64,000 nt of DNA from the NCBI RefSeq assembly GCF_030812215.1, contig NZ_JAUSSG010000005.1:310001-374000 (forward strand), read 5' to 3'. This document shows, piece by piece, positions 29,896 to 46,246 of the stretch. Source of the DNA: Variovorax boronicumulans (GTDB lineage: Bacteria; Pseudomonadota; Gammaproteobacteria; Burkholderiales; Burkholderiaceae_C). A program made the position numbers and the translations under genes. Positions within the stretch are counted from its first letter, which is position 1. Each line of letters begins with the position of its first letter. Below the pieces are notes generated by a model. The model made no database searches and was not told the DNA's origin. It saw only the letters and a list, made by a program, of their open reading frames with translations.

Positions 29896-31101
29896 ATGAA
29901 ACTCATCGATTCGCTCGTCACGCAGGCGGCCGGCATCGCCGCCGTCCGACGTGACCTCCACGCCCACCCCGAACTCTGCTTCCAGGAAGTCCGCACCGCC
30001 GATGTGGTGGCAGGCAAGCTCACCGAATGGGGCATTCCCATCCATCGGGGCCTTGGAACCACCGGCGTCGTCGGCATCGTCAAGAACGGCACCAGCAACC
30101 GCGCCGTCGGTCTTCGCGCCGACATGGACGCCCTGCCCGTCACCGAGCTCAACACCTTCGCCCACGCCAGCAAGCACCACGGCAAGATGCACGCCTGCGG
30201 CCATGACGGCCACACCGCGATGCTGCTCGCAGCCGCCCAGCACCTGGCCAAGAACCGCAATTTCGACGGCACCGTCTACCTGATCTTCCAGCCGGCCGAA
30301 GAGGGCGGCGGCGGCGCCCGCGAAATGATCAAGGAAGGGCTCTTCGAGCAGTTCCCCATGGATGCCGTCTTCGGCATGCACAACTGGCCCGGCATGAAGG
30401 CCGGCCAGTTCGCCGTGAGCCCCGGCCCGGTGATGGCGTCGGGCAACAAGTTCCACGTCAACGTGATCGGCAAGGGCGGCCATGCCGCGCTGCCGCAGAC
30501 CGGCATCGACCCGGTGCCGATCGCCTGCGAGATCGTGCAGGCCTTCCAGACCATCCTCACCCGCAAGATGAAGCCGACCGATTCGGCCGTGATCTCGGTC
30601 ACCACCATCCATGCGGGCGAAACCAACAACGTGATTCCCGACAACTGCGAGCTCTCGGGCACGGTGCGCACCTTCTCGATCGAGGTGCTCGACATGATCG
30701 AGGCCAAGATGCGGCAGATCGCCGAGCACATCTGCGCGGCGCACGACGCGACCTGCGATTTCCGCTTCGAGCGCTACTACCCGCCCACCATCAACACCGA
30801 GGCCGAGGCCCACTTCGCGCGCGACGTGATGGCCGGCATCGTCGGCCCCGAGAACGTGCTCAAGCAGGAGGCCGCCATGACCTCCGAGGACTTCGCCTTC
30901 ATGCTGCAGGCCAAGCCCGGCGCCTATGCCTTCATCGGCAACGGCGACGGCACACACCGCGACATGCACCACGGCGAAGGCCCCTGCACGCTGCACAACG
31001 CGAGCTACGACTTCAACGACGACCTGATCCCGCTGGGCGCCACCTGCTGGGTGCAGATCGCCGAGCAGTTCCTGAACAAGCCCGGCGGCAACGTTTCATG
31101 A
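29896..31101 (+). CDS. M20 family amidohydrolase (hippurate hydrolase/aminoacylase-like)
   Basis: A 401-residue M20D peptidase. Metal ligands lie in ACGHDGHTAML (Cys101, His103, His106), with the catalytic glutamate in FQPAEEGGGGAREM. The dimer-domain motif is GKGGHAALPQTGIDP, and MTSEDFAFML carries the late ligand region. It should hydrolyse N-acyl amino acids or similar amides in the cytoplasm. The next gene overlaps it by four bases and encodes a second hydrolase with a carboxypeptidase fold, so the pair may act in sequence on one substrate, which is unknown. Confidence 0.9.
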   Translation: MKLIDSLVTQAAGIAAVRRDLHAHPELCFQEVRTADVVAGKLTEWGIPIHRGLGTTGVVGIVKNGTSNRAVGLRADMDALPVTELNTFAHASKHHGKMHACGHDGHTAMLLAAAQHLAKNRNFDGTVYLIFQPAEEGGGGAREMIKEGLFEQFPMDAVFGMHNWPGMKAGQFAVSPGPVMASGNKFHVNVIGKGGHAALPQTGIDPVPIACEIVQAFQTILTRKMKPTDSAVISVTTIHAGETNNVIPDNCELSGTVRTFSIEVLDMIEAKMRQIAEHICAAHDATCDFRFERYYPPTINTEAEAHFARDVMAGIVGPENVLKQEAAMTSEDFAFMLQAKPGAYAFIGNGDGTHRDMHHGEGPCTLHNASYDFNDDLIPLGATCWVQIAEQFLNKPGGNVS

Positions 31102-32192
31102 TCGGCATCGGCGAGGCCTTTTCGCCGCGCTATGCCCAGGCGCGCCAGAAGTTCCTGCAAGGCTGCGTGAGCGCCGGCCTCACCGTCGAGCCGCATGCGC
31201 ACCCGCTCAAGGGCCGCGACGGCGAAGACTTGTCGATGGACGTGGCGCTCGATGGCGACGCGAACGCCGAGCGCCTGCTGATCGTCACGAGCGCATGCCA
31301 CGGCGTCGAGGGCCATTGCGGCAGCGGCGTGCAGGTGTTCGCGCTGCACGATGCCGAGTGGCGCGACAAGGCCAAGGCACAGGGCGTGGCGGTGCTCTAC
31401 GTGCACGCGCTCAACCCGCACGGCTTTTCGTACGGCCGGCGCGTGACGCACGAGAACGTCGACCTGAATCGCAACTTCATCGATTTCTCGCAGCCGGTGC
31501 CGGTCAACGAGCCTTACGCCAAGCTGCATCCGCTGCTGCTGCCCGATACCTGGCCGCCCACGCCCGAGAACCAGGCCGCCGTCGAGAAGTGGATCGAGAA
31601 GCACGGCACCACCGCTTACCAGGCGGCCGTCACCAGCGGCCAGTACCAGTTCGAAGACGGCCTTTTCTTCGGCGGCAAGGCGCCCACCTGGAGCAACAAG
31701 ACCATTCGCAGCGTGTTGCGCCGCCATGCGGGCAATGCCAGGCGCATCGGCTGGATCGACCTGCACACGGGACTTGGCCCCAACGGCCTCGGCGAGCGCA
31801 TCTATGCGGGCAAGGACGACAAGGCCGCCTACGCCCGCGCCAACGCCTGGTGGGGCACGCCCGCGGCGCCCGTCACTTCGATCTACGACGGCTCATCGAC
31901 TTCGGCGCTGCTGCGCGGGCTGATGTGGGACGCCATCTACGAGGAGTGCCCGAAGGCCGAATACACCGGCATCGCGCTCGAATACGGCACGCTGCCCATC
32001 CTGGAAGTGACTGGCGCACTGCGTGCGGACCACTGGCTGCACAAGCACCCGGATGCGCCGGCCGACCTGGCCGACAGCATCCGTGCGCGGATGGTCGAGG
32101 CGTTCTATACCGACACCGACGCGTGGCGCGGGCAGATCGTCAGCCAGGCGCGGCAGGCGATGTTCCAGGCGGTGGATGGGCTGAGCGGCTGA
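31098..32192 (+). CDS. M14-fold metallopeptidase-like protein (DUF2817)
   Basis: A 364-residue protein of the DUF2817 family, related to zinc carboxypeptidases. The probable zinc site is His-Glu in SACHGVEGHCGSG with a later histidine in GWIDLHTGLGPNG; GIALEYGTLP may carry the catalytic glutamate. No signal peptide is seen. It is translationally coupled to the M20 hydrolase (ATGA). The gene ends five bases before the converging ThDP-enzyme gene. The substrate may be an acylated amino acid or small peptide, which is inference from the neighbour. Confidence 0.8.
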   Translation: MIGIGEAFSPRYAQARQKFLQGCVSAGLTVEPHAHPLKGRDGEDLSMDVALDGDANAERLLIVTSACHGVEGHCGSGVQVFALHDAEWRDKAKAQGVAVLYVHALNPHGFSYGRRVTHENVDLNRNFIDFSQPVPVNEPYAKLHPLLLPDTWPPTPENQAAVEKWIEKHGTTAYQAAVTSGQYQFEDGLFFGGKAPTWSNKTIRSVLRRHAGNARRIGWIDLHTGLGPNGLGERIYAGKDDKAAYARANAWWGTPAAPVTSIYDGSSTSALLRGLMWDAIYEECPKAEYTGIALEYGTLPILEVTGALRADHWLHKHPDAPADLADSIRARMVEAFYTDTDAWRGQIVSQARQAMFQAVDGLSG

Positions 32193-32196
32193 TCGT

Positions 32197-33879
32197 TCAG
32201 GGCAGCACTCCCGCCGCCAACGCGGCCTTCCGGATCGACTGCAGCGTGCTGACTGGCGTGATCGCCTCGGGGTCCAGCAGGCAATGCAGGATCGCCGGCT
32301 TGCCGCTCGCGCGTGCACGTGCGAGTGCGGGGCCGAACTCTTCCGTCGTGGTCACGCGTTCGCCGTGGCCGCCGAACACCTCGGCATAGCCGCGGAAGTC
32401 GGGGTTCTTCAACTGCGTGGCGCTGATGCGGCCGGGGTAGTGCTTTTCCTGGTGCATGCGGATCGTGCCGTACATGCCGTTGTCCAGCAGCACCACGAGG
32501 ATCGGCAGGCCGTACTGCACGGCGGTGGCGAACTCCTGGCCGTGCATCAGAAAATCGCCGTCGCCCGCGAACACGACCACCTCGCGCCCAGGCCACAGGC
32601 GCTTGGCGCCGACGCCCGCCGGCAGGCCGTAGCCCATCGAACCGCTGGTCGGCGCGAGCTGGCTTGCGAACGCGCGGAACGGCCAGAAGCGGTGCACCCA
32701 GGTCGCGAAGTTGCCTGCGCCGTTGCAGAAGATGGTGTCGGCCGGCAGCACCTCGCGCAGGTGCTGCATGACCTCGCCCATCTGCAGCGGACCGGGAATG
32801 CGGATCGGCGCCGGATCGCTCCAGCGCAGGAACTCTTCGCGCGCGATCTTCGTCTCGGCCTGCCACACGGGGGGTGATGCCGGACGCAGCGTGAACACCG
32901 CTTCGGCGAAAGCCTGCGGCGTGGCGTGGATGCCCTGCGTCGGGCGGTAGAGCTTGCCGAGCTCGTCGGCGTCGGCGTGCACATGCACCAGCGCCTGCTT
33001 CGGCTGCGGGATCGCGAACAGCTCATAGCCTTGCGACGGCACTTCCGACAGACGCCCACCGACCAGCAGCACCAGGTCCGCATTGCGGATGCGTTCCAGC
33101 ATGCGCGGATTCGCGCCGAGTCCCAGGTCGCCCGCGTAGCAGGGATGCTCGGCGGACATCAGCATCTGGCGGCGGAACGAGCAGTACACAGGCAGCGCAT
33201 GCGCCTCGGCAAACTTCGCGAACTGCTGCGTCGCGGCTTCGGACCAGCGGCTGCCGCCGAGGATGACGACGGGCCGCTGCGCCTGCGACAGGCGCTGCTG
33301 CAGCTCGGCCAACTGCGCCGGGCCGGGATAAGTTTCGGTCACCGCATACGGCAGCGCATCGGCCACCACAGCGGCTTCGGTCAGCATGTCTTCGGGCAGC
33401 GCGATCACCACCGGACCGGGCCGGCCCGAGGTCGCGACATGGAAGGCGCGCGACACGAGCTCGGGCACGCGCGCCGGGTCGTCGATCTGCACGACCCACT
33501 TGGCCATCGTGCCGAAGACCGCACCGTAGTCCAGTTCCTGGAAGGCTTCGCGGCCGAGCGCGTCGCGCGCGACCTGGCCGACGAACAGCAGGAGCGGCGT
33601 CGAATCCTGGTGCGCGATGTGCACGCCCGCCGCCGCGTTGGTGGCACCAGGGCCGCGCGTGACGAAGCAGATGCCCGGCCTGCCGGTGAGCTTGCCCTGC
33701 GCCTCGGCCATCATCGTCGCGCCGCCTTCCTGCCGGCACACCGTCACGTCGATCGATGCGTCGTGCAGCGCGTCGAGCACGGCCAGGAAGCTTTCGCCGG
33801 GCACGCAGAAGAGCTGCTTGACGCCGTGGGTGATGAGCTGGTCGACCAGGATCTGGCCGCCGGTGCGGGAGGAAGTCAT
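32197..33879 (-). CDS. Thiamine-diphosphate-dependent enzyme (acetolactate synthase/decarboxylase family)
   Basis: A 560-residue protein with the three domains of the pyruvate-oxidase/acetolactate-synthase family. The catalytic glutamate lies in CRQEGGATMMAEA, and the ThDP-magnesium motif begins GDGD at 439-442 and runs to LDNGMYG. The start MTSSRTGGQILVDQL was taken from the family N-terminus. It lies at the end of an operon with an aminotransferase, an amino-acid-type binding protein and an aldehyde dehydrogenase. In that setting a 2-oxo-acid decarboxylase is the most economical reading. A true acetolactate synthase is less likely as no small subunit is present. Confidence 0.87.
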   Translation of the reverse strand: MTSSRTGGQILVDQLITHGVKQLFCVPGESFLAVLDALHDASIDVTVCRQEGGATMMAEAQGKLTGRPGICFVTRGPGATNAAAGVHIAHQDSTPLLLFVGQVARDALGREAFQELDYGAVFGTMAKWVVQIDDPARVPELVSRAFHVATSGRPGPVVIALPEDMLTEAAVVADALPYAVTETYPGPAQLAELQQRLSQAQRPVVILGGSRWSEAATQQFAKFAEAHALPVYCSFRRQMLMSAEHPCYAGDLGLGANPRMLERIRNADLVLLVGGRLSEVPSQGYELFAIPQPKQALVHVHADADELGKLYRPTQGIHATPQAFAEAVFTLRPASPPVWQAETKIAREEFLRWSDPAPIRIPGPLQMGEVMQHLREVLPADTIFCNGAGNFATWVHRFWPFRAFASQLAPTSGSMGYGLPAGVGAKRLWPGREVVVFAGDGDFLMHGQEFATAVQYGLPILVVLLDNGMYGTIRMHQEKHYPGRISATQLKNPDFRGYAEVFGGHGERVTTTEEFGPALARARASGKPAILHCLLDPEAITPVSTLQSIRKAALAAGVLP

Positions 33880-33904
33880 GAGGGTTCCAGTGGAATGAAG
33901 ATGT

Positions 33905-35122
33905 TCAGGAGAGCGCGGCGCAGGCGGCGGCGATGCGCGCGCACGCCTCTTCGAGCTGCGCCATCGACGTCGCATACGAGATGCGGAAATACGGTGCGAG
34001 TCCGAACACGCTGCCGGGCACCACCGCCACGTCGAAGTCCTGCAGCAGGTAGCGGCAGAAGTCGCTGTCGGTCTGCAGCAGCGCGCCGGCGGCGGTGCGC
34101 TTGCCGAGCGCGCCCGCGCAACTTGCGAATGTGTAGAAGGCGCCTTCGGGCACGCGGCAATGCAGGCCTTGCGTGCGGTTGAGCGCGGCCACGACGAAGT
34201 CGCGGCGCTGTTGAAACGACGCGCAGCGCTCGGCCACGATGCCCTGCGGCCCGGTGAGCGCCTCGATCGCCGCGGCCTGGCTCACCGACGACGGGCACGA
34301 GGTCGACTGGCTTTGCACCACGGCCATCGCCGCGATCAACGGGCGCGGTCCCGCGCCGTAGCCGACGCGCCAGCCGGTCATTGCATAGGCCTTCGACACG
34401 CCGTTCACCGTCAACGTGCGTTCGCGCAGCCGCGGCTCCACGGCCACCGGCGTTGCGAATGCAAGGCCGTCGTAGAGGATGTGTTCGTAGATGTCGTCCG
34501 CCAGCACCCAGACACCCGGGTGGTCGAGCAGCACATCGGTGATCGGCTTCAGTTGCGCAGCGCTGTAGGCCGCGCCGCTCGGGTTCGACGGCGAGTTGAG
34601 AAACAGCCAACGCGTGCGCGGCGTGATGGCCGCCTGCAACTGCGCCGCCGTCAGGCGAAAGCCGTTCTCCTCGCCGCACGCCACCGACACCGGCACGCCG
34701 CCACAGATTTGCACGATGTCCGCGTACGAAGTCCAGTACGGCGCGGGCAGGATCACTTCGTCGCCCGGGTTCAGGCTCGCCATCAGCGCATTGAAGATCA
34801 CCTGCTTGGCGCCCGCGCTCACGCTGATCTCGTCGAGTGCGAAGTCCAGCGCGTTGTCGCGCTTGAACTTCAACTGCACAGCCGCCTTCATCGCCGGGCT
34901 GCCGTCGAGCACCGTGTAGCGCGTGTCGCCGCGCGCAATCGCCTGCGAGGCGGCATGCCGGATGTTCTCGGGCGTGTCGAAATCGGGCTCGCCCGCGCCC
35001 AGCACGATCACCGGGCGGCCGGCGCGCTTGAGCGCCTGCGCGTGGTCGGTGATGCGCAGGATCTCCGAGACGTTGATGGCGCGCACACGTTGCGCCGGCG
35101 AGAACACGGCTGCGTCTGTCAC
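33905..35122 (-). CDS. PLP-dependent aminotransferase, class I (aspartate family fold)
   Basis: A 405-residue fold-type I aminotransferase. The PLP lysine is Lys244 in VSKAYAMTGWRVGYG; other family marks are LGAGEPDFDTPENI, the asparagine in NSPSNPSG, and ADDIYEHILYDG. It begins with GTG that overlaps the stop of the binding-protein gene (GTGA). It should convert an amino acid into a 2-oxo acid with 2-oxoglutarate or oxaloacetate as acceptor. Substrate range is not readable, but the neighbouring genes suggest an imported amino acid. Confidence 0.9.
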   Translation of the reverse strand: MTDAAVFSPAQRVRAINVSEILRITDHAQALKRAGRPVIVLGAGEPDFDTPENIRHAASQAIARGDTRYTVLDGSPAMKAAVQLKFKRDNALDFALDEISVSAGAKQVIFNALMASLNPGDEVILPAPYWTSYADIVQICGGVPVSVACGEENGFRLTAAQLQAAITPRTRWLFLNSPSNPSGAAYSAAQLKPITDVLLDHPGVWVLADDIYEHILYDGLAFATPVAVEPRLRERTLTVNGVSKAYAMTGWRVGYGAGPRPLIAAMAVVQSQSTSCPSSVSQAAAIEALTGPQGIVAERCASFQQRRDFVVAALNRTQGLHCRVPEGAFYTFASCAGALGKRTAAGALLQTDSDFCRYLLQDFDVAVVPGSVFGLAPYFRISYATSMAQLEEACARIAAACAALS

Positions 35123-36030
35123 TTCGCGTAGGCTTCCAATGGCTTGTCGTTGGGTTCGAGCAAGAGCTGCTTGAGCGCGGGGCTCATCGGCAGGTTGAGG
35201 CTGGTGTTCTTCGGTGGAATCGCGGCCACGAACCACTTGGTGTAGATCTTCTCGAGCTCACCGCTCTTCATGAGCTTGCGCAGCGACTCGTCCACCGCCG
35301 CCTTGAAGGCCGGGTCGTCCTTGCGGAACAGCAGCGCGATCGGCTCCGAGCCCAGCGCCTCGCCGGTGATGCGGTAGGCCGTCGGGTTCTTCGAGTTCGC
35401 GATGATCCCGGCGAGCAGGTTGTCGTCGAGCACGAAGGCATCTGCGCGGCCCGACTCCATGAGGAGGAAGCTCTCCAGGTGGTCCTTGCCGAGCATCGTG
35501 TTGTACGAGACGTTCTGCGCGCGCTCGCGCTTGCGCAGCAGCTGCACGGCGGTGGTGCCGGTGGAGGCCGACACGTTGCGGCCCGCGAGCTGGTCGAGCG
35601 TGGTGATGCCCGAGTCAACCTTGGTCGCCATGCGCACCTCGCTCACATACGTGGTGAGTGCGAAGGCCACCTGCTGCTGGCGCGCGGTGTTGTTGGTGGT
35701 GGGGCCGCAGCCGATGTCCAGCGTGCCGTTCTGCACCAGCGGAATGGTGTTCTGCGCGGTCACGGCCATGTATTCGAGCCTGGCGTTGGGCGTGATGTCC
35801 TTCAGCACGCGCTCGCAGAGCTCGACGTGGTAGCCCACGTACTTCTCGCCCGCGCCCAGCATGTAGGCCATCGGCGGCGAGGCTTCGCGCACGCCGAGCA
35901 CGACCTTGCCGCTCGCCTTGATCTTGTCGAGCGTGCCGCCCGCAGGCGCGGCCTGCTGCGCGGTGGCGCTGCCGAAGGCGAGCGCGAGCAGCGTGGCAGT
36001 GGCGAGGGTCTTCAGTTGCATCTTCATCAT
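35119..36030 (-). CDS. Amino-acid ABC transporter periplasmic binding protein (GltI-like)
   Basis: A 303-residue SBP_bac_3 protein with a signal peptide (cleavage near FGSATAQQA). Early LDKIKASGKVVLGVREASPPMAY and later GTLDIGCGPTTNN are typical of polar amino-acid receptors. AGGAGA precedes the ATG. No permease or ATPase genes follow, so the membrane part must be borrowed. It lies inside an otherwise enzymatic operon, between an aldehyde dehydrogenase and an aminotransferase, which links uptake to breakdown of the same amino acid. Confidence 0.9.
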   Translation of the reverse strand: MMKMQLKTLATATLLALAFGSATAQQAAPAGGTLDKIKASGKVVLGVREASPPMAYMLGAGEKYVGYHVELCERVLKDITPNARLEYMAVTAQNTIPLVQNGTLDIGCGPTTNNTARQQQVAFALTTYVSEVRMATKVDSGITTLDQLAGRNVSASTGTTAVQLLRKRERAQNVSYNTMLGKDHLESFLLMESGRADAFVLDDNLLAGIIANSKNPTAYRITGEALGSEPIALLFRKDDPAFKAAVDESLRKLMKSGELEKIYTKWFVAAIPPKNTSLNLPMSPALKQLLLEPNDKPLEAYAK

Positions 36031-36126
36031 CTCTCTGTCTCCTGGTGGTTTTTCTTGGGTACGCGCGGCCGCCTCCTTGCCGCTGCAGCGAAGTGCTGCG
36101 CGGCAGGAACAACGGGCCGGGGTCGA

Positions 36127-37665
36127 TCAGTCGCCGATGTCGAAGGTCACGCCTTGCGCCAGAGGCAATGCCGTCGAGTAGTTGATGGTGTTGGTCGCAC
36201 GGCGCATGTACGCCTTCCAGCTGTCGGAGCCCGCTTCACGCCCGCCGCCGGTTTCCTTCTCGCCGCCGAAGGCGCCGCCGATCTCGGCACCGCTCGGGCC
36301 GATGTTGACGTTGGCGATGCCGCAGTCCGACCCCGCGCTGGACATGAAGCGCTCGGCCTCGCGCACGTTGAGCGTGAAGATCGACGACGACAGGCCCGCG
36401 CCCACCGCGTTGTGCCATTCGATGGCTTCGTCCAGCGTGCTGTAGCGCACCACGTAGAGGATGGGCGCGAAGGTCTCGCGCAGCACCGGGCCGTCGTGCG
36501 ACTTCAGTTCCACCAGCGCGGGCCGCACGTAGTAGGCGTCCTGCGTGCCGATGCCATCCACGCGGCTGCCGCCATGCACCTTCGCGCCGATCTCGCGGCT
36601 TTCGCTCAGGGCCTTCTGCATGCCCTCGAAGGCCGCGCGGTCGATCAGCGGACCGACCAGCGTGCCGGCCTCGCGCGGATCGCCCACCTGCACATTGCCG
36701 TAGACCTTCGCGAGCTTGGGCACGAGCTGGTCGTACACGCTGTCGTGCACGAACAGGCGCCGCAGCGTCGTGCAGCGCTGGCCGGCCGTGCCCATGGCTG
36801 CGAAGGCGATGCCACGCAGCGTGAGATCGAGGTCGGCCGAGGGCGTGACGATGGCGGCGTTGTTGCCGCCGAGTTCGAGAATCGCGCGAGCGAAGCGCGC
36901 GGCCAGCTTGGGCCCGACCTGCCGACCCATCGCCGTGGAGCCGGTCGCCGAGAGGATCGGCACGCGATGGTCGTCCACCAGCACTTCGCCGATGTCGCGC
37001 TGGCCCAGCAAGAGACCCAGCAGGCCTTCGGGCGCGTCGCCGAAACGGGCGATGGCGCGTTCGGCGATGGCGTGCACGGCCAGTGCGGTGAGCGGTGTTT
37101 TCTCGGACGGCTTCCACACCACCGAGTCGCCGCACACGAGCGCGAGTGCCGCATTCCACGACCACACGGCCACGGGGAAGTTGAAGGCCGAGATCACGCC
37201 GCAGACGCCCAGCGGATGCCAGGTTTCCATCATCCGGTGCTCGGCGCGCTCGGTGGCCAGCGTGAGGCCGTAGAGCTGGCGCGAGAGGCCGACCGCGAAG
37301 TCGCAGATGTCGATCATTTCCTGCACCTCGCCCGCGCCTTCGGACGGGATCTTGCCGGCCTCCAGCGTGACGAGGCGTCCGAGGTCGCGCTTGGCGGCGC
37401 GCAGCTCTTCGCCCAGGAGACGCACCAGCTCGCCGCGCCGCGGCGCCGGCACATTGCGCCAGGCCTTGAAGGCCTCGTGCGCCCGGCCGATCGCGCCGGT
37501 GGCTTCCACGGCCGTGGTCTGCGGCACCTCTGCGATCACCTCGCCGCTGACCGGCGAGCGCACCGTCAGCTCGCCGCCGGTGTAGGCGGCGCGGGGCACG
37601 CCCAGGCGCTGCAGCAATTGTTCGACTTCGGTGGGGACAGAAAGGGTGGCTTGGGCTTCAGACAT
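36127..37665 (-). CDS. Aldehyde dehydrogenase, family 7 (aminoadipate-semialdehyde/antiquitin-like)
   Basis: A 512-residue NAD-linked aldehyde dehydrogenase. The nucleophile is Cys298 in GTAGQRCTTLRR and the general-base glutamate lies in ILELGGNNAAIV. HPLGVCGVISAFNFPVAVW is distinctive of the ALDH7 (antiquitin, piperideine-6-carboxylate dehydrogenase) branch. It is first in a four-gene minus-strand operon. ALDH7 enzymes commonly act in lysine breakdown, but other amino aldehydes are possible. The start MSEAQATLSVPTEVEQLL was preferred over an ATG 20 codons upstream. Confidence 0.9.
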   Translation of the reverse strand: MSEAQATLSVPTEVEQLLQRLGVPRAAYTGGELTVRSPVSGEVIAEVPQTTAVEATGAIGRAHEAFKAWRNVPAPRRGELVRLLGEELRAAKRDLGRLVTLEAGKIPSEGAGEVQEMIDICDFAVGLSRQLYGLTLATERAEHRMMETWHPLGVCGVISAFNFPVAVWSWNAALALVCGDSVVWKPSEKTPLTALAVHAIAERAIARFGDAPEGLLGLLLGQRDIGEVLVDDHRVPILSATGSTAMGRQVGPKLAARFARAILELGGNNAAIVTPSADLDLTLRGIAFAAMGTAGQRCTTLRRLFVHDSVYDQLVPKLAKVYGNVQVGDPREAGTLVGPLIDRAAFEGMQKALSESREIGAKVHGGSRVDGIGTQDAYYVRPALVELKSHDGPVLRETFAPILYVVRYSTLDEAIEWHNAVGAGLSSSIFTLNVREAERFMSSAGSDCGIANVNIGPSGAEIGGAFGGEKETGGGREAGSDSWKAYMRRATNTINYSTALPLAQGVTFDIGD

Positions 37666-38366: not shown

Positions 38367-39245
38367 TCAGTCCGGGCCGGGCGCCTCGGGCAGCGAGATC
38401 TTCTGCCCGCCCGGCGAGCCCGCCAGGCTCTGCGCCGGCCGCCTGAGCGTCGCATCGAAGGGATTGATCTTCGGTCCGATGGCGGCGGCTTCCCGCTTGA
38501 GCAACTCCACCACCGTCGGCATGCGGTCCGCATTGAGCCGGTCGGCAATCGTGCCGACGCTCAGCGCGGCCACCGCGCGCCCTTCACGGTCGAGGATGGG
38601 CACCGCCACGCCCGCCATGCCTTCGAGCAGCCCGGTGTTGCGGCCTGCGTAGCCGGCCTGCCGCACGCGCTCGATTTCGGTGCGCAGATAGACCTCGTCG
38701 TACACGCCGTACTCGCGCACCCGCGAGAGATTGAAGCGGATCACCTCTTCGCGCTCCGCCTCCGGCAGGAACGCGAGGATCGCCAGCGCGCCCTGCCCCA
38801 CGCCCAGTGCGATGCGCCCGCCGATGTCGCCGGTGAACGAGCGGATGGGAAACGGCCCCTCGCTGCGGTCCAGGCAGATGGCGTCGAAGCCGCTGCGCGC
38901 CAACAGGAAGATGCTGTCGCCCAGGCTCGCGCACAGCCGCAGCAGTACCGGCCGGCAAATCGAGCGCAGGTCGCCGGGGTTGCCCGCGCTCGCCGCGAGC
39001 GCAAAGAAATCGATGCCGAGGCGATAGAGCTTGGTGCGCTCGTCCTGCTCGACCATGCCCTCGGCCATGAGCGCCTGCAGCAAACGGTGCGTGGTGGCTT
39101 GCGTGAGGCCCACGGAACGTGCGATCTGGGTCACGCGACCGCCCTCGGCCTGCACCGCGCCGAGCGCGCGGATCACCGAAAAGACGCGCGGCACGCCGCC
39201 GCTGGACGCGGGCGACGCCGAGGCCGCCTCCGAAGTGCTTTCCAT
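38367..39245 (-). CDS. IclR-family transcriptional regulator
   Basis: A 292-residue regulator: a winged helix-turn-helix at about residues 20-80 (RVFSVIRALGAV, then THRLLQALMAEGMVEQ) and the IclR effector domain to about residue 265. The start at 39245 (MESTSEAAS) avoids reading through the control region. It is divergent from the seven-gene transporter and flavoprotein operon, which it most likely controls. Four TGGAAT half-sites lie in the shared region. Confidence 0.9.
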   Translation of the reverse strand: MESTSEAASASPASSGGVPRVFSVIRALGAVQAEGGRVTQIARSVGLTQATTHRLLQALMAEGMVEQDERTKLYRLGIDFFALAASAGNPGDLRSICRPVLLRLCASLGDSIFLLARSGFDAICLDRSEGPFPIRSFTGDIGGRIALGVGQGALAILAFLPEAEREEVIRFNLSRVREYGVYDEVYLRTEIERVRQAGYAGRNTGLLEGMAGVAVPILDREGRAVAALSVGTIADRLNADRMPTVVELLKREAAAIGPKINPFDATLRRPAQSLAGSPGGQKISLPEAPGPD

Positions 39246-39335: not shown

Positions 39336-39451
39336 ACCCGAGGCGTTCTGGCGCAATCGTTGCAATAGAGTGAATCGAAAGTACCCAGCAGTCCATGGCC
39401 TGCACCAAGGTGTCGCACGCCATCTTTCCTGCCCCCACGAAAGGCGTTTCC

Positions 39452-40522
39452 ATGTCATTCCTACGGCTTACCGACGTGACCAAGTTCTACGGCAGCACCC
39501 GCGCGGTGTCGGCGATGAACCTCAGCGTCGAAAAGGGCGAGTTCGTGTCGCTGCTCGGCCCCTCGGGCTGCGGCAAGACCACGACGCTGCAGATGATTGC
39601 GGGCTTCGAGGCGGTCTCCAGCGGCCGCATCGAACTCGCGGGCAAGGACATCACGAATGCCAAGGCCAACACGCGCGGCCTGGGCATCGTGTTCCAGAGC
39701 TACGCGCTCTTTCCGCACATGACGGTGGCCGACAACGTGAGCTTCGGCCTGGAGATGCGCAAGATGCCGAAGGCCGAGCGCGCCGACCGCGTGAAGCAGG
39801 CACTGGCGCTGGTGCATCTGGAGATGCACGCCACGCGTTATCCGCGCGAACTCTCGGGCGGCCAGCGGCAGCGCGTGGCGCTCGCCCGCGCGCTGGTGAT
39901 CGAGCCGCCGGTGCTGCTGCTCGACGAACCGCTCTCCAACCTGGACGCCAAGCTGCGCGAGGAGATGCAGTTCGAGCTGCGCCAGATCCAGCGCAAGGTC
40001 GGCACCACCACGGTGATGGTCACGCACGACCAGAGCGAGGCCATGTCGATCAGCGACCGCGTGGTGGTCATGGAAGGCGGCTGCGCCACGCAGATCGATC
40101 ATCCGCACCGCGTGTACGAGCATCCGAGCACGCGCTTCATCTCCACCTTCGTGGGCAAGGCCAACCTGCTGAACGGGCGCGTGACGGCCTGCGGCACCGG
40201 CAGCTGCAAGGTCGAGGTCGGCCCGCTCGCGGTGCAGGTCGATGACGACGGTTTCAAGACCGGCGCCGCGGTGCTCATGAGCGTGCGGCCCGAAAAGCTC
40301 CAGCTCGTCATGGCCGGCCGCGGCCGGCTCGACGGCACGGTGCAGGAACGCTTCTTCCTCGGCAGCCAGTGGCTCTACCGCGTGAACACGCCCGCCGGTG
40401 ACCTGATGGTGTTGAGCCCCAACGACGGCCGCGAGGCGCTGGACGAAGGCAACGCCGTGGGCATCGACTGGCCCGCGCACTGCACGCGGCTGCTGCCGGC
40501 CGAGGAGGCGGTCGCGGCATGA
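39452..40522 (+). CDS. ABC transporter ATP-binding protein (PotA-like)
   Basis: A 356-residue importer ATPase: Walker A GPSGCGKTT at 36-44, signature LSGGQRQRV from residue 134, Walker B VLLLDEPLSNLDAKL, then a C-terminal TOBE domain (about 240-350). This form drives Pot (spermidine/putrescine), iron and opine importers. The start MSFLRLTDVTKFYG was chosen from the family; an ATG 19 codons upstream exists. It is the first gene of the operon and overlaps the next by four bases. Confidence 0.93.
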   Translation: MSFLRLTDVTKFYGSTRAVSAMNLSVEKGEFVSLLGPSGCGKTTTLQMIAGFEAVSSGRIELAGKDITNAKANTRGLGIVFQSYALFPHMTVADNVSFGLEMRKMPKAERADRVKQALALVHLEMHATRYPRELSGGQRQRVALARALVIEPPVLLLDEPLSNLDAKLREEMQFELRQIQRKVGTTTVMVTHDQSEAMSISDRVVVMEGGCATQIDHPHRVYEHPSTRFISTFVGKANLLNGRVTACGTGSCKVEVGPLAVQVDDDGFKTGAAVLMSVRPEKLQLVMAGRGRLDGTVQERFFLGSQWLYRVNTPAGDLMVLSPNDGREALDEGNAVGIDWPAHCTRLLPAEEAVAA

Positions 40523-41379
40523 GCGGCATCCGAAACAAGGCCGCGCCATGGTGGCTGTCGGGCCCCGCCCTGCTTCTCTTCACCGCGCTGCTGCTGGTGC
40601 CGCTGCTGCTCACCGCGGTGCTGTCGTTCAACGTGTACGACCCAGCCACCGGGCCGAAGGCGGGCGAGTTCACGCTGGAACACTACGCGCACGTGTTCAC
40701 CGACTCGTACTACCACGGCATCTTCTGGCGCACCTTCTGGATCTCGGCGCTGGTCACCTTGATCTGCGTGGTCATCGGCGCGCCCGAGGCCTATGTGCTC
40801 AGCCGCATGCGCAACCCGTGGCGCTCGATCCTGTTGCTGGTGGTGCTCGCGCCGCTGCTGGTGTCGGTGGTGGTGCGCGCCTTCGGCTGGAGCATGCTGC
40901 TCGGCCCCGAGGGCGCGGTCAATTCGCTGCTGGGCCTCGTGGGCATCGGGCCGGTGAAGATGCTCTACACCGAGATCGCGGTGATCGTCGCGCTGGTGCA
41001 CGTGATGCTGCCGTTCATGGTGATCCCGGTATGGACCTCGCTGCAGAAGCTGGACCCGGGTGTCGAGAACGCGGCGCTCTCGCTCAAGGCCTCGCCGTTC
41101 ACCACGCTGCGGCGCATCGTGCTGCCGCAGGTGATGCCGGGCATTCTTTCCGGCAGCCTGATCGTGTTCGGCCTGGCCGCGAGTTCGTTCGCGATTCCCG
41201 GGCTGCTCGGCGGGCGTCGACTGAAGATGGTCGCGACGGTCGTCTACGACGAGTACCTGAGCGAGCTCAATTGGCCGCTCGGTGCCGCCATCGCACTCAC
41301 GCTGCTCGCCGCGAACCTCATCGTGATGCTGAGCTACAACCGCCTCGTCGAAGGCCGCTACAAGAAAGCGCTGGGCTGA
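40519..41379 (+). CDS. ABC transporter permease (PotB-like)
   Basis: A 286-residue inner-membrane protein with six hydrophobic segments. The ATPase-contact loop (EAA motif) is NAALSLKASPFTTLRRIVLPQ. It pairs with the second permease at 41470. The gene is coupled to the ATPase gene by an ATGA overlap. Confidence 0.9.
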   Translation: MSGIRNKAAPWWLSGPALLLFTALLLVPLLLTAVLSFNVYDPATGPKAGEFTLEHYAHVFTDSYYHGIFWRTFWISALVTLICVVIGAPEAYVLSRMRNPWRSILLLVVLAPLLVSVVVRAFGWSMLLGPEGAVNSLLGLVGIGPVKMLYTEIAVIVALVHVMLPFMVIPVWTSLQKLDPGVENAALSLKASPFTTLRRIVLPQVMPGILSGSLIVFGLAASSFAIPGLLGGRRLKMVATVVYDEYLSELNWPLGAAIALTLLAANLIVMLSYNRLVEGRYKKALG

Positions 41380-41382
41380 AAT

Positions 41383-41466
41383 GACCCCCACGCTCCATCA
41401 CTTCGTGTATTCGCTGCCCCCCGAGGGGGCGCAGGCCTCCCTTGGGGCGGCCCGGCGGGAGGCCTC
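41383..41466. repeat. Dispersed intergenic repeat, copy 3
   Basis: It fills almost the whole 90-base gap between the two permease genes. ACTTCGTGTATTCGCTGCCC, CCCGAGGGGGCGC and GGGGCGGCCCGGCGGG are parts of a repeat often met between Comamonadaceae genes, related to the copies near 490 and 47958. It interrupts an operon otherwise joined by overlaps. Confidence 0.7.
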
Positions 41467-41469
41467 GGC

Positions 41470-42264
41470 ATGAGCAAGAACGGCCCCTTCGCCCTCGCGT
41501 TCAACGCGCTCGTCATCACCTTCATGCTGGCGCCGCTGCTGGTGGTGTGCATCGTCGCGTTCACGCCCGAGAACACGCTGACTATTCCGACCACCAGCTT
41601 CTCGCTGCGCTGGTTCGCCGCGGTGTTCGCGCACCCGGACTTCATGCAGTCGTTCTGGAACAGCCTGTGGCTCGCGCTGGCCTCGGCCACCATCGCCACG
41701 CTGCTGGCGGTGCCGGCGGGCATGGCGATCACGCGCTACGAGTTTCCGGGGCGCGATTTCTTGAATGGCCTCTTTCTCTCGCCGCTGATCATTCCGCACC
41801 TGGTGCTGGGCGTGGCGCTCTTGCGCCTGTTCGCGCTGGTGGGTGGCACGGGCAGCTTCGGCTGGCTGGTGATGGCGCATGCGCTCATCGTCACGCCCTA
41901 CACGCTGCGCCTGGTGGTGGCGGCGCTCGTGGGCTTCGACCGCAGCGCCGAGCAGGCCGCGCTTTCGCTGGGCGCGAGCCAGGCGACGGTGTTCCGGCGC
42001 ATCACGCTGCCGATGATCCTGCCGGGCGTGACCGGTGGCTGGATGCTCGCTTTCATCAACAGCTTCGACGAAGTGACGATGTCGATCTTCGTGACCTCGC
42101 CGAGCACGGTGACGCTGCCGGTGCGCATGTACATGTATGCGACCGAGTCGATCGATCCGCTGATGGCCGCGGTGTCGGCGCTGATGGTGGCGGTGACCGC
42201 GGTGGCGATGGTGATCCTCGACCGGCTCTACGGGCTGGACCGCGTGCTGGTGGGGCGCAAGTAG
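41470..42264 (+). CDS. ABC transporter permease (PotC-like)
   Basis: A 264-residue membrane protein with about six hydrophobic segments and the EAA loop EQAALSLGASQATVFRRITLP. It forms the channel with the permease at 40519. Its stop TAG is followed at once by the ATG of the [2Fe-2S] gene, so transport and oxidation genes are translated together. Confidence 0.92.
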   Translation: MSKNGPFALAFNALVITFMLAPLLVVCIVAFTPENTLTIPTTSFSLRWFAAVFAHPDFMQSFWNSLWLALASATIATLLAVPAGMAITRYEFPGRDFLNGLFLSPLIIPHLVLGVALLRLFALVGGTGSFGWLVMAHALIVTPYTLRLVVAALVGFDRSAEQAALSLGASQATVFRRITLPMILPGVTGGWMLAFINSFDEVTMSIFVTSPSTVTLPVRMYMYATESIDPLMAAVSALMVAVTAVAMVILDRLYGLDRVLVGRK

Positions 42265-42573
42265 ATGGCATCGAACGCAACAAACCACGCATTGCTGCAT
42301 CGCGTGGCCGAGACCGGCCGTGTCGCCGTGCCCTTCACGCTCGACGGTGAGCCCGCTTCTGCATTGGCCGGCGACACGGTGCTCACCGCCGTACTCACGC
42401 AAGGCAGCCAACTCCGCCGCAACGAATTCAGCGACATGCCGCGCGCCGGCTTCTGCATGATGGGCGCCTGCCAGGACTGCTGGATCGCCACCGCCGAAGG
42501 CGAGCGCCTGCGTGCCTGCTCGACCTTCATCGCGCCGGGGATGGAACTGGTCACCGGACGGAGCGGCGCATGA
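42265..42573 (+). CDS. Small [2Fe-2S] subunit of a flavoprotein dehydrogenase (HcnA/opine-oxidase gamma type)
   Basis: A 102-residue ferredoxin-like protein with cysteines in GFCMMGACQDCW and RACS, the pattern of the Fer2_4 family. Such proteins are the small subunit of HcnABC (hydrogen cyanide synthase), opine/nopaline oxidases and D-hydroxyproline dehydrogenases. It should pass electrons between the two flavin subunits encoded next. It overlaps the next gene by four bases. Confidence 0.88.
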   Translation: MASNATNHALLHRVAETGRVAVPFTLDGEPASALAGDTVLTAVLTQGSQLRRNEFSDMPRAGFCMMGACQDCWIATAEGERLRACSTFIAPGMELVTGRSGA

Positions 42574-43982
42574 CGACGAATGCCGAGCTTCAACCCGTGA
42601 TCGTCGGCGCCGGGCCGGCCGGTGTGCGCGCGGCAGAGGCGCTGGTTGCACATGGACTGCGCCCCGTCGTGATCGACGAGTCCTCGCGTGCCGGCGGACA
42701 GATCTACCGCCGGCCACCCGCCAACTTCATCCAGCGCACCGCGGCCACGCTCTACGGCTTCGAGGCCTCGCGTGCGAACGCGGTGCACGAAGCTTTCGAC
42801 GCGCTGCGCGATCGCATCGACTACCGCCCCGACAGCCTGGTGTGGAATGCACAGGCCGGCGTGCTCGACGTGCTGCACAACCCGACACGCACCACCACGC
42901 GCGTGCCCCATGGCGCACTGATCGTCGCAACCGGCGCGACCGACCGCGTGCTGCCCGTGCCTGGGTGGACCTTGCCTGGCGTCTACACGCTCGGCGGCGC
43001 GCAGGTCGCGCTCAAGTTCCAGGGCTGCGCCATCGGCGAGCGCGTGGTGTTCATGGGCACGGGGCCGTTGCTGTATCTCGTGGCGTATCAATACGCGAAG
43101 GCCGGCGCGAAGGTTGCGGCCGTGCTGGACACCGCGCGGCTCACCGACCAGATCGCCGCGACGCCCGCGATGCTGCGCCAGCCCGCCGTGTTCGCGAAGG
43201 GCGTGTACTTCGTCGCATGGCTGCGCGCGCATGGCGTGCCGCTGCACAGCGGCGTGCGGCCGCTGCGCGTGACCGGCGACGACGAGGCGCGGCGTGTCAC
43301 CGGCATTGCGTGGCACGACGGCCGCGAGGAGCGCGCGCTCGACTGCGACGCCGTCGGCTTTGGCTACGCACTGCGCTCCGAAACCCAGCTCGCCGATCTG
43401 CTCGGCTGCCGTTTCGAATTCGCTTCGATGCACCGCGCCCACCTGCCGGTGCGCGACGCGGCGGGCCGCGCCAGCGTCGAAGGCGTCTACCTCGCGGGCG
43501 ATGGCGCCGGCATCATGGGCGCCGATGCGGCCGAGTGGGCGGGCGAGCGCGCCGCGCTCGCGCTGCTGGCGGACCGTGGCGTGGCCATCGACACCGCGCG
43601 CGCCGAAGCGCTCGAACGCAAGCTCGAAGGACTGACGGGTTTCCGCCGTGGACTGGAGCGCGCCTTTCCGCTGCCGCAGGACTGGGCCGCGAACGCGCCC
43701 GACGACCTCGTCATCTGCCGCTGCGAGAACGTCACCGCCGGCACGCTGCGCCAGACCGTTGTCGTCAACGGCGCCGACGAGATGAACCGCCTGAAGGCGC
43801 TGTCTCGCGTCGGCATGGGCCGCTGCCAGGGCCGCATGTGCGGCGTGGCCGCGGCAGAAATCCTCGCGCATGCGACGGGCCAGCCGCTGCAGCAGGTGGG
43901 CCGGCTGCGCGGGCAGGCGCCGATCAAGCCGATCCCGATCCATCTCGCCGTGCGCGCGGCCAGCGAAGGAGCGAGCGCATGA
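42570..43982 (+). CDS. NAD/FAD-type flavoprotein subunit with C-terminal [2Fe-2S] domain (HcnB/OoxA type)
   Basis: A 470-residue pyridine-nucleotide-disulfide-oxidoreductase-like protein: the FAD loop VIVGAGPAGVRAAEAL, a second nucleotide loop GTGPLLYLVAYQYAKAGA, and a C-terminal cysteine cluster (CRCENV ... GRCQGRMCG) like the BFD-type iron-sulfur domain of HcnB and opine oxidase A. It is one of three subunits encoded in tandem. It probably hands electrons from the amine-oxidising subunit to the respiratory chain. Confidence 0.9.
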   Translation: MTTNAELQPVIVGAGPAGVRAAEALVAHGLRPVVIDESSRAGGQIYRRPPANFIQRTAATLYGFEASRANAVHEAFDALRDRIDYRPDSLVWNAQAGVLDVLHNPTRTTTRVPHGALIVATGATDRVLPVPGWTLPGVYTLGGAQVALKFQGCAIGERVVFMGTGPLLYLVAYQYAKAGAKVAAVLDTARLTDQIAATPAMLRQPAVFAKGVYFVAWLRAHGVPLHSGVRPLRVTGDDEARRVTGIAWHDGREERALDCDAVGFGYALRSETQLADLLGCRFEFASMHRAHLPVRDAAGRASVEGVYLAGDGAGIMGADAAEWAGERAALALLADRGVAIDTARAEALERKLEGLTGFRRGLERAFPLPQDWAANAPDDLVICRCENVTAGTLRQTVVVNGADEMNRLKALSRVGMGRCQGRMCGVAAAEILAHATGQPLQQVGRLRGQAPIKPIPIHLAVRAASEGASA

Positions 43983-45166
43983 GTTCGCTCCGAACCCTGC
44001 GCACCGACGTGGCCATCGTCGGCGGCGGCATCGTCGGCTCGTCGGCTGCGCTCGCGCTGCGGCAGATGGGCATCGGCGTCGCGCTGCTGGAGCGCGACCT
44101 CTGCGGCTCGCGCTCCAGCGGCGTCAACTTCGGCGGCGTGCGGCGCCAGGGGCGGCCGCTGAGCCAATTGCCGCTCGCGCAACGCGCCCACCAGATCTGG
44201 GGGCGCCTGCCCTCGCTGCTCGGCACCGACGGCGAGTATCTGCGCTCGGGCCATTTCAAGATCGCGCGCAGCGAATCCGACATGGCCTCGCTCGAGCGCT
44301 ACCGCGCGCAGAGCCTGGACTTCGACCTCGGGCTCGAACTGATCTCCGCCGCCCGCCTGCGCGAACGCTGCCCGTGGCTCGGCCCGCGTGCGGTCGGCGG
44401 CTCGCTGTGCGTGGAAGACGGCCAGGCCAACCCGCGTCTGGTGTCGCCCGCCTTCGCGCTCGCGGCGCAGCGCGCGGGCGCGCAGATCTTCGAGCGCCAC
44501 AAGGTCGACGAAGTGGCGCACGACGGCGCGATGTTCATGCTGCGCTCGGGCAATGCGCTCGAAGTGCATGCGCCGATGCTGCTCAACTGCGCGGGCGCAT
44601 GGGCCGGCCCCCTCGCCGCCCAGTTCGGCGAGGCGGTGCCGCTGCGCGCGAGCCACCCGGTGATGGCGGTGACCGAGCCGCTGCCGCACTTCATGGTCTG
44701 GAGCCTCGGTGTCGAGGGCGGCGGCATCTACGGCCGGCAGGTGGCGCGCGGCAACCTGGTGCTCGGTGGCGGCCGTGGGTATGCGCTCGATGCCGACCGC
44801 GCCCGCGTCGACCGCGACGCCATCGCCACGCTCGCGCTGCAGGCCATCGAGCTGCTGCCCGCGCTGCGCCATGCGCACTTCATCCGCACCTGGAGCGGCA
44901 CCGAGGGCAACATGCCCGACCGCCAGCCGGTGCTCGGCCCGAGCCGCACCACGCCCGGGCTGTTCCATGGCTTCGGCTTCTCGGGCGCGGGCTTCCAGAT
45001 CGGCCCGGCCGCCGGCGAGGTGCTGGCCGAGCTGGTGCGCGATGGCCGCAGCAGCACGCCGATCGATGCGTTCGCGGTCGACCGCGCCTTCCCTGAGGAA
45101 GAAGGGGAAGCCGCGGATGAAGAGCAGACCCACTCCCCTCTCACTTCCGTCCCCACCCTCTCCTGA
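43979..45166 (+). CDS. DadA-like FAD oxidoreductase, catalytic subunit (HcnC/OoxB type)
   Basis: A 395-residue DAO-family flavoprotein. The FAD loop VAIVGGGIVGSSAALAL is at the N-terminus, and the C-terminal signature is GFGFSGAGFQIGPAAGE. In the three-subunit enzymes this is the part that oxidises the amine or imino acid. The C-terminal 25 or so residues (EEEGEAADEEQTHSPL and onward) are acidic and unlike the family, possibly a tail. The substrate is presumably what the surrounding ABC importer brings in. Confidence 0.9.
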   Translation: MSSLRTLRTDVAIVGGGIVGSSAALALRQMGIGVALLERDLCGSRSSGVNFGGVRRQGRPLSQLPLAQRAHQIWGRLPSLLGTDGEYLRSGHFKIARSESDMASLERYRAQSLDFDLGLELISAARLRERCPWLGPRAVGGSLCVEDGQANPRLVSPAFALAAQRAGAQIFERHKVDEVAHDGAMFMLRSGNALEVHAPMLLNCAGAWAGPLAAQFGEAVPLRASHPVMAVTEPLPHFMVWSLGVEGGGIYGRQVARGNLVLGGGRGYALDADRARVDRDAIATLALQAIELLPALRHAHFIRTWSGTEGNMPDRQPVLGPSRTTPGLFHGFGFSGAGFQIGPAAGEVLAELVRDGRSSTPIDAFAVDRAFPEEEGEAADEEQTHSPLTSVPTLS

Positions 45167-45178
45167 AAGGCAACCACC

Positions 45179-46246
45179 ATGTCCCGTATCCAGAAGACTT
45201 TTTCCCTTCGCCGGACCCTGCTCGGGGCAGCGGCGGTTTCGCTGCTCGCGGCCGGCGGCGCGGCGAGCGCGCAGACCAAGACGCTCTACATCGGCATGAA
45301 CGGCGGCACCATGGAGAAGGCGTACACGCAGTACGTGTTCCCGGCCTTCGAGAAGCTCTACGGCGCGAAGGTGGTGGTGGTGCCGGGCACCTCGTCCGAC
45401 ATCCTCGCGAAGGCGCAGGCCAACAAGGACAAGCCGCAGATGCACGTGATGTTCCTGGACGACGGGATCATGGTGCGCGCCATCGGCATGGGCCTGTGCC
45501 AGAAGCAGAAGCCCAACCCGTCGCTGGCCGAGATCTACCCCGCCGCACGCTTCAAGGACGACATGGCCAGCGGCGTGAGCCTGGGCATGACGGGTCTCGC
45601 CTACAACGCCAAGATGTTCAAGGAAAAGGGCTGGGCCGCACCCACCTCGTGGATGGACCTGGCCGATCCGAAGTTCAAGGGCAAGGTGGTGTTCCAGTCG
45701 ATGTCGTCCTCGTCGTTCGGGCTGCACGGCTTTTTGATGTTCAACCGCATCCAGGGTGGCAACGACAAGAACGTGGAGCCCGGCTTCAAGGCCTGGCCCA
45801 CCACCGTCGGCCCTAACGTGCTCGAGTACATCCCGAGCTCGGCCAAGCTCTCGGAGATGGTGCAGACGGGCGAGGCCGCGATCTTCCCGCTCACGCCCAC
45901 GGCCGTGGCTGCGCTCAAGGCCAAGGGCATTCCGGTGGAGTACGCGCCGCCCAAGGAAGGCGCGGTGGTGCTGATGGTGGGCCAGTGCGTGATCGCCAAC
46001 AACAGCGAGCCCGAGCTGTCGCAGAAGCTCGCCGAGTTTTTGCTGAGTCCGCTCGCGCAGGCCAACGTGCTTCAGTACGGCGCACAGATCCCGACCAACC
46101 CGAAGGCGCCGGCCGTGGGCGAAGGCGCGACGCAGGTGGCGGACATCAACAAGTGGATGAAGACCGCGATCACCATCGACTGGGAGAGCATCAACGCGAA
46201 CCGGCCGGCGTGGAATTCGCGCTGGAACAAGACGATCGAGAAGTAG
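45179..46246 (+). CDS. ABC transporter periplasmic binding protein (PotD-like)
   Basis: A 355-residue SBP_bac_8-type receptor with a signal peptide ending near GGAASAQT. Features such as SLGMTGLAYNAKMFKEKGW and GEAAIFPLTPTAVAALKAKG match polyamine/opine receptors. An AAAGG site precedes the start. It closes the operon, so the receptor is encoded last while the ATPase is first. It converges on the GMC gene with only nine bases between stops. Confidence 0.92.
   Translation: MSRIQKTFSLRRTLLGAAAVSLLAAGGAASAQTKTLYIGMNGGTMEKAYTQYVFPAFEKLYGAKVVVVPGTSSDILAKAQANKDKPQMHVMFLDDGIMVRAIGMGLCQKQKPNPSLAEIYPAARFKDDMASGVSLGMTGLAYNAKMFKEKGWAAPTSWMDLADPKFKGKVVFQSMSSSSFGLHGFLMFNRIQGGNDKNVEPGFKAWPTTVGPNVLEYIPSSAKLSEMVQTGEAAIFPLTPTAVAALKAKGIPVEYAPPKEGAVVLMVGQCVIANNSEPELSQKLAEFLLSPLAQANVLQYGAQIPTNPKAPAVGEGATQVADINKWMKTAITIDWESINANRPAWNSRWNKTIEK

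Follow-up and report, generated by a model that had tools for sequence, protein, structure and literature searches.

In the D-lysine route of Pseudomonas putida, the steps expected to lead to 2-oxoadipate are those of P6CDH (L-piperideine-6-carboxylate dehydrogenase) and of a 2-aminoadipate aminotransferase. There, 2-oxoadipate is consumed by HglS (hydroxyglutarate synthase, DUF1338), described in PMC7286885 as an Fe(II)/O2 enzyme that forms D-2-hydroxyglutarate and whose reaction also occurs in plants. Human lysine breakdown uses a thiamine diphosphate (ThDP) enzyme on the same compound, which is decarboxylated by the 2-oxoadipate dehydrogenase complex DHTKD1 (PMC9367764). Here we analyze a 64,000-nucleotide stretch of Variovorax boronicumulans ("the window"; contig NZ_JAUSSG010000005.1, positions 310,001 to 374,000), in which a minus-strand operon encodes an aldehyde dehydrogenase (ALDH), an amino-acid binding protein, a pyridoxal phosphate (PLP) aminotransferase, and a ThDP enzyme of family PRK08199. 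As in the P. putida route, 2-oxoadipate would be the node, but a search of the Variovorax genome gave no HglS match and the operon holds the ThDP enzyme instead. We consider it probable, though well short of certain, that this operon supplies the lower half of a catabolic route of the pipecolate/lysine type, in which the ThDP enzyme replaces HglS by decarboxylating 2-oxoadipate non-oxidatively. In contrast to the DHTKD1 complex, which is an oxidative multienzyme system yielding glutaryl-CoA, the window's enzyme is a single protein with acetolactate-synthase-type domains.

What is new is the proposed placement of a ThDP enzyme at 2-oxoadipate, a step for which other clusters carry HglS. Among the matches listed in searches of the open papers in PubMed Central, there was no description of a bacterial 2-oxoadipate decarboxylase, nor of this pathway, this operon, or the lysine genes of Acidovorax GW101-3H11. 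An earlier inspection of the letters of this DNA (the sequence-only reading) had likewise known of no described operon of exactly this make-up; that statement stands within the same scope, but has to be qualified by partial parallels in rhizobial clusters that combine P6CDH and aminotransferase genes with HglS.

A P6CDH-Type Dehydrogenase Heads the Operon

The four open reading frames (ORFs) lie on the minus strand at the positions given by the sequence-only reading, and its view of them as a single operon agrees with their spacing: in the order of transcription, 96 nt separate the ALDH and binding-protein genes, the stop of the latter overlaps the start of the aminotransferase gene in a shared GTGA, and a further 25 nt precede the ThDP gene (Table 1). 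A third-position GC content of 0.85–0.94 speaks for coding in all four, and the families to which they had been assigned were right. No permease or ATPase gene lies inside the operon.

The ALDH scores 806.9 bits against NF050084, the P6CDH model (cut-off 730), and falls short of the threshold in each of the 24 further families listed; among the many ALDHs of its genome, it is the sole gene above the P6CDH cut-off. Judged by family, it is most likely an L-piperideine-6-carboxylate (2-aminoadipate semialdehyde) dehydrogenase of lysine/pipecolate breakdown. On the strength of this score, it would act ahead of the aminotransferase and make the latter's substrate, 2-aminoadipate.

Both the aminotransferase and the binding protein have closest families whose substrates or ligands are acidic amino acids. 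The best solved match of the aminotransferase is 6f35, "aspartate aminotransferase B" (618.9 bits), an entry that we take to be a rhizobial protein; with the aspartate transaminase family PRK06107, it reaches 554.7 bits and misses the cut-off of 617. The enzyme is 63–67% identical to aminotransferases adjoining P6CDH in three clusters of other lineages (L281, L282, and L285), and this linkage leads us to propose that it is a 2-aminoadipate aminotransferase; 2-aminoadipate may be the natural substrate of the PRK06107/6f35-type group. The binding protein scores best, among 14 families listed, with the glutamate/aspartate-binding family PRK10797 (245.5 bits; cut-off 375, not reached). The Sinorhizobium meliloti aminotransferase (L285, 9541–10773), whose neighbors are P6CDH and HglS, shares its best family with the window's enzyme and likewise stays under the cut-off (573.3 bits).

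The sequence-only reading had arranged the same genes in an Ehrlich order, with import, transamination, ThDP-dependent decarboxylation, and finally oxidation by this ALDH; for lysine, 2-oxo-6-aminocaproate would give 5-aminopentanal and then 5-aminovalerate. That all four proteins share one operon speaks for such an order, and PRK07524 (5-guanidino-2-oxopentanoate decarboxylase) counts among the related ThDP families. A precedent exists in the arginine transaminase pathway of Pseudomonas aeruginosa (AruH, AruI, and KauB), which also combines an aminotransferase, a ThDP-dependent 2-oxo acid decarboxylase, and an ALDH. However, the window's ThDP enzyme belongs to another family, its 232.8 bits for PRK07524 (cut-off 500) ruling out an arginine-type decarboxylase, and its ALDH is of the P6CDH type and probably acts upstream. 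The P6CDH score, together with the linkage of P6CDH elsewhere to lysine-type genes, leads us to reject the ALDH as a terminal Ehrlich oxidase, and the acidic amino acids of the closest aminotransferase and binding-protein families point the same way. We regard the Ehrlich order as improbable, while its central step, decarboxylation of a 2-oxo acid by the ThDP enzyme, is probable.

Part of that linkage comes from genomes with neither HglS nor the window's ThDP clade, where a saccharopine/lysine-dehydrogenase-like gene lies near P6CDH in 18 of 30 loci (L198–L227). The lysine/saccharopine dehydrogenase family PF16653 has no match in the Variovorax genome, which disfavors a saccharopine/lysine-dehydrogenase route here. 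An Lrp/AsnC regulator is found near P6CDH in 13 of the same 30 loci.

A ThDP Enzyme Lacking the Acetohydroxyacid Synthase Motifs

The ThDP protein passes the model for PRK08199 (NF006052; 904.8 bits, cut-off 539), a family whose name carries no function, and its closest named orthologues, from Variovorax, are 97% identical. Against the acetohydroxyacid synthase (AHAS) large-subunit model TIGR00118, it reaches 328.8 bits of the required 538.35, and against the sulfoacetaldehyde acetyltransferase (Xsc) model TIGR03457 243.8 of 676.4. Among solved proteins, its top match is an ancestral acetolactate synthase (224 bits), and the search for structures found no close one.

The arginine of the FDDR motif and the tryptophan of the QW motif have functional roles in AHAS. 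We aligned the family with the AHAS-type protein of the same genome (L001), which reads RFDDRVTG (the arginine in question being the second) and MVRQWQE at these sites. The consensus of the window's clade, clade A (in this alignment 105 sequences of at least 60% identity), is RLSEvPSQ and TIRMHQE, and that of the rest of PRK08199 is RLGEmtT and TIRMHQE (62 sequences; L194–L197, 38–41% identical, were included for the former motif and excluded from the latter, which also omits the outgroups L002 and L008). By consensus, both AHAS residues are therefore replaced throughout the family. Motif loss and the TIGR00118 score together rule out acetolactate synthase, and the curated score rules out Xsc, bearing out the sequence-only reading on both. 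Because it retains both the GDG motif and the activating glutamate, the ThDP enzyme is probably catalytically active. A tree of the family was built without the two outgroups; L174, a duplicate of L064, was likewise left out.

The proposed route would start outside the operon, with a Pot-type transporter for uptake and a three-subunit flavin dehydrogenase that oxidizes pipecolate to piperideine-6-carboxylate, as suggested by subunit plan and linkage. P6CDH, for which the family evidence is strong, would oxidize piperideine-6-carboxylate, a cyclic imine derived from lysine, to 2-aminoadipate, and the aminotransferase, judging from its linkage, would turn this into 2-oxoadipate. From its context, the ThDP enzyme would then remove CO2 non-oxidatively to leave glutarate semialdehyde, taking over from the O2- and Fe(II)-dependent HglS plus 2-hydroxyglutarate dehydrogenase. 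Another ALDH, or P6CDH itself, might oxidize the semialdehyde to glutarate, which would enter glutaryl-CoA metabolism. The gene families, the operon structure, the conserved linkage, the lack of an HglS match in the genome, and the loss of the AHAS motifs are observed; the substrates of the ThDP enzyme, the aminotransferase, the binding protein, and the flavin dehydrogenase, like the fate of glutarate semialdehyde, are predictions.

The P6CDH–ThDP Pair Is Conserved in Relatives

We compared 80 named ThDP loci from Variovorax, Acidovorax, Rhodoferax, Paracidovorax, Curvibacter, and other genera. P6CDH is present on 56 of them, in 55 cases on the strand of the ThDP gene. Of the 69 loci whose upstream flank is 6 kb or longer, 54 have it. 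The sequence-only reading had suggested looking for the four-gene order in other genomes, and the full set was recognized on half of the loci (40/80), a co-occurrence far above chance. Twelve further loci have P6CDH and the ThDP gene without aminotransferase and binding protein, and four have P6CDH, aminotransferase, and ThDP gene. Measured as the distance between aligned ends, like all gaps given here for relatives, the gap between P6CDH and ThDP genes is just 8–23 bp in nine loci, which identifies these two as the core pair, with the aminotransferase and binding protein as additions. Acidovorax loci such as L114 (strain GW101-3H11) additionally encode a DAO-type flavoprotein and have a LysR gene in divergent orientation.

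HglS and the ThDP Enzyme Appear Mostly as Alternatives in One Slot

For HglS (PF07063), the Variovorax genome gave no match at an E value of 0.001, in a search whose control was positive in 2 of 14 known genomes. A sample of 200 genomes from the host family contained 70 with P6CDH, 31 with HglS, and 21 with ThDP-A, by which we mean proteins of the window's clade scoring at least 889 bits (at least 69% identity by the fetched loci; G277, at 63%, was excluded). Among the 70 P6CDH genomes, 14 have ThDP-A only, 25 HglS only, 1 both (G286, where they are unlinked), and 30 neither. The two avoid each other in these genomes (Fisher p 0.006), and HglS is absent from all nine genomes in which P6CDH and ThDP-A lie within 6 kb (p 0.02), both by tests that ignore shared ancestry. 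The 2-oxoadipate slot thus appears to be filled mostly by either the ThDP enzyme or HglS. The flanking modules give a local picture of this: in L242 and L244, a transporter/flavin-dehydrogenase module like that of the window adjoins the P6CDH–ThDP pair, and in L076 and L254, this module and P6CDH cluster with HglS and a different aminotransferase.

Other Lineages

All 12 plasmid records of Azospirillum that contain P6CDH have a PRK08199 gene 38–181 bp upstream of it and on its strand; they come from a few related species, several from the same one, and are counted as one lineage. The ThDP gene also occurs in a 13th record, which gave no match for P6CDH. In Azospirillum argentinense, P6CDH passes the curated model (817.9 bits) and the ThDP protein scores 902.6 bits for PRK08199. 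Two of three Azospirillum loci inspected have a LysR-type gene divergent to the pair; in the one compared, it is 48% identical to the Acidovorax LysR protein. Outside the order of the host, the pair recurs in G696, on one strand and ∼110 bp apart.

Loci of Rhizobium, Agrobacterium, Sinorhizobium, and Paracoccus combine HglS, P6CDH, an aminotransferase, and an FAD oxidoreductase, and none of these loci has a PRK08199 gene. In L281, L282, and L285, P6CDH precedes the aminotransferase, as in the window, and is 72–75% identical to the window's. The Variovorax operon lacks HglS and the FAD oxidoreductase and contains a binding protein along with the ThDP enzyme; nor is it adjoined by a LysR gene, such as lies upstream in three of the four clusters L281, L282, L285, and L289 (the last assigned by annotation). 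HglS is annotated as VOC in these clusters, and L281 has a MarR gene in the LysR position. A ThDP-like gene beside an Agrobacterium P6CDH cluster belongs to another family (27% identity).

For plasmids, a count drew on 60 of the 77 HglS records and, for P6CDH, on 60 of 111. At least 30 of the 60 listed P6CDH places have a listed HglS within 6 kb. Eight of the 60 are Azospirillum places, and each of these has a ThDP gene as its neighbor and no HglS listed inside 6 kb. Adjacency of a ThDP gene was assessed at the Azospirillum places; elsewhere, no ThDP place lay near among the matches listed.

Some PRK08199 genes adjoin a gene that may serve in glutarate use. In Rhizobium leguminosarum, a CoA-transferase gene lies 13 bp upstream of a PRK08199-clade gene (clade by tree; 58% identical to the window's ThDP enzyme), and its product passes the succinate-glutarate CoA-transferase model NF052585 (793.6 bits, cut-off 750). 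A Shinella relative (75.6% identical) is placed in the same way. The gene upstream of a clade-A gene in Methylobacterium has NF052585 as its best family at 580.8 bits, under the cut-off, and the six Burkholderiales loci scanned (covering six of seven CaiB-type genes, L185 being left out) hold relatives at 480–522 bits, likewise under 750, not all of which lie close to the ThDP gene. The putative 2-oxoadipate-making neighbors of PRK08199 and this putative glutarate-using one would be connected by a decarboxylation of 2-oxoadipate and a subsequent oxidation.

Two further arrangements were seen around PRK08199 genes. In Rhizobium jaguaris (L288, 969–9671), a PRK08199-clade gene stands in a different context, being preceded by a pair of hydantoinase/oxoprolinase-family genes, an aminotransferase gene, and two oxidoreductase genes. 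In a distant Burkholderiales clade (L175, 8957–15096; L178, 1436–7513), a recurring set after the PRK08199 gene comprises genes that look by eye like those of an ornithine cyclodeaminase and a hydroxyacid dehydrogenase, a function-unassigned gene, and a CaiB-type CoA-transferase gene.

Weighing the Assignment

Several observations weigh against 2-oxoadipate decarboxylation in place of HglS. Among the 80 related loci, 24 have the ThDP gene without P6CDH, the upstream sequence reaching 6 kb in 15 and being shorter in 9 (one of the 24, L102, carries a short P6CDH fragment at the contig end). The family sample includes 30 of 70 P6CDH genomes with neither HglS nor ThDP-A, and 6 of 21 ThDP-A genomes lack P6CDH. 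A sample of the class (364 genomes) gave 16 with PRK08199, 62 with P6CDH, and 5 with both, the families standing side by side on one contig in just two of these five (the window's own genome and G696). In 4 of 200 order-sample genomes (G105, G158, G027, and G156), HglS has a PRK08199 gene of another clade (47–53% identical) no more than 4 kb away, and a second consumer of 2-oxoadipate seems redundant there. At least eight rhizobial replicons (CP090106, NZ_CP104131, NZ_CP104135, NZ_CP104127, NZ_CP069303, NZ_CP104159, NZ_CP024314, and NZ_CP121653) carry both HglS and a PRK08199-like gene, the two lying apart, the Shinella replicon with the CoA-transferase neighbor among them. In Azospirillum lipoferum, Azospirillum oryzae, and Azospirillum sp. 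B510, HglS lies on another replicon (seen in a plasmid collection, with chromosomes outside it). Finally, 60 of 66 PRK08199 loci below 58% identity lack, over 9 kb around the gene, every lysine-route marker sought.

At three of the six ThDP-A loci without P6CDH, the LysR gene is kept, and at one of them the binding protein as well; our guess is that this fits uptake of 2-aminoadipate itself. Where PRK08199 and HglS coexist, the two might act in parallel, perhaps when oxygen is short, or PRK08199 might have another substrate.

This coexistence bears on the alternative that the ThDP enzyme does belong to the lysine route but serves as a carboligase, acts on another intermediate (2-oxoglutarate, or 2-oxoadipate with an aldehyde acceptor), or runs parallel to HglS or an oxoadipate dehydrogenase. 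PRK08199 stands beside HglS and an FAD/Fe-S oxidoreductase, which we take to be YdiJ-like, in G027, G156, and G105, and beside a full-length HglS in G158; the rhizobial replicons add cases in which both are present apart, and several solved relatives of the enzyme are carboligases. The family-wide replacement of the AHAS arginine and tryptophan argues against this alternative, the glutarate CoA-transferase neighbor suits plain decarboxylation, and HglS occurs in 1 of the 15 P6CDH genomes with ThDP-A. We judge this alternative unlikely, though less so than the Ehrlich order.

A role unconnected with lysine, in which linkage to P6CDH would be a lineage accident of the Comamonadaceae, could draw on the spread of PRK08199 in the host family (148 of 200 genomes), on the scarcity of lysine genes near the loci outside clade A, and on the clade-A loci that lack P6CDH. 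It is hard to reconcile with the recurrence of the pair in Azospirillum, an alphaproteobacterium, and in G696, and with the several PRK08199 clades whose genes adjoin HglS, P6CDH, or a glutarate-type CoA-transferase gene, and we consider it very improbable.

Non-oxidative decarboxylation of 2-oxoadipate in place of HglS remains the assignment that we favor for the operon. Its extension to the family is more tentative, and we would not yet bet on it: PRK08199 proteins may be widespread non-oxidative 2-oxoadipate decarboxylases of an O2-independent lysine/pipecolate branch, having taken the place of HglS next to P6CDH on two or more occasions (in Comamonadaceae and in Azospirillum) and operating alongside HglS in other bacteria. 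If so, there would be a second, O2-independent exit from 2-oxoadipate besides HglS, which would account for how some P6CDH bacteria without HglS proceed and would give a function to a large family so far named just "thiamine pyrophosphate protein." The production of glutarate from lysine could likewise profit from a natural 2-oxoadipate decarboxylase.

Genes Around the Operon

An IclR-family gene stands between the operon and a plus-strand transporter/flavin-dehydrogenase module (Table 1). D-Hydroxyproline and opine dehydrogenases are described in PMC4575208 as heterotrimeric enzymes whose 2Fe-2S and FAD parts are encoded together. Three overlapping genes of the window (42265–45166) resemble such alpha-beta-gamma flavin dehydrogenases, with Fer2, FAD/BFD, and DAO-type domains all present, but differ in that their module is linked to P6CDH. 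From this linkage, pipecolate is predicted to be the likelier substrate, and the enzyme is probably a pipecolate (imino-acid) dehydrogenase. The accompanying Pot/Phn-type ATP-binding cassette (ABC) transporter genes are colocated with P6CDH in L076, L242, L244, L252, and L254, and the gene for the transporter's binding protein is kept in the last four of these.

Table 1. Features of the operon and the adjoining module in the window
Feature	Coordinates	Strand	Remarks
P6CDH-type ALDH, gene 1 of operon	36127–37665	-	ATG at 37665
Amino-acid binding protein (SBP_bac_3), gene 2	35119–36030	-	PF00497, 94.6 bits
PLP aminotransferase, gene 3	33905–35122	-	GTG start
ThDP enzyme, family PRK08199, gene 4	32197–33879	-	ATG at 33879
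IclR-family regulator	38367–39245	-	Start codon inferred; kept beside the module in relatives
Pot/Phn-type ABC transporter	39395–42264	+	ATPase family match; ORFs
Transporter ATPase	39395–40522	+	
Transporter permeases	40519–41379, 41470–42264	+	
2Fe-2S subunit gene	42265–42573	+	PF13510 Fer2_4
FAD/BFD subunit gene	42570–43982	+	Pyr_redox_2 + Fer2_BFD + SO_alpha_A3
DAO-type subunit gene	43979–45166	+	ThiO/soxB-type matches, below cut-off
Substrate-binding protein of the Pot/Phn-type transporter	45179–46246	+	PhnS, 76.8 bits of 395

The genome holds a second PRK08199 paralogue (G000:C2:401742-403445, L073), 49% identical to the window's ThDP enzyme, with no lysine-route marker of those sought nearby. 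On its 5′ side, the operon is flanked by a divergent small membrane-protein-like gene, and on its 3′ side it converges with a DUF2817 gene, the ThDP and DUF2817 genes meeting end to end. The latter belongs to a plus-strand pair (29896–32192), in which an M20 amidohydrolase gene (29896–31101) overlaps the DUF2817 gene (31098–32192).

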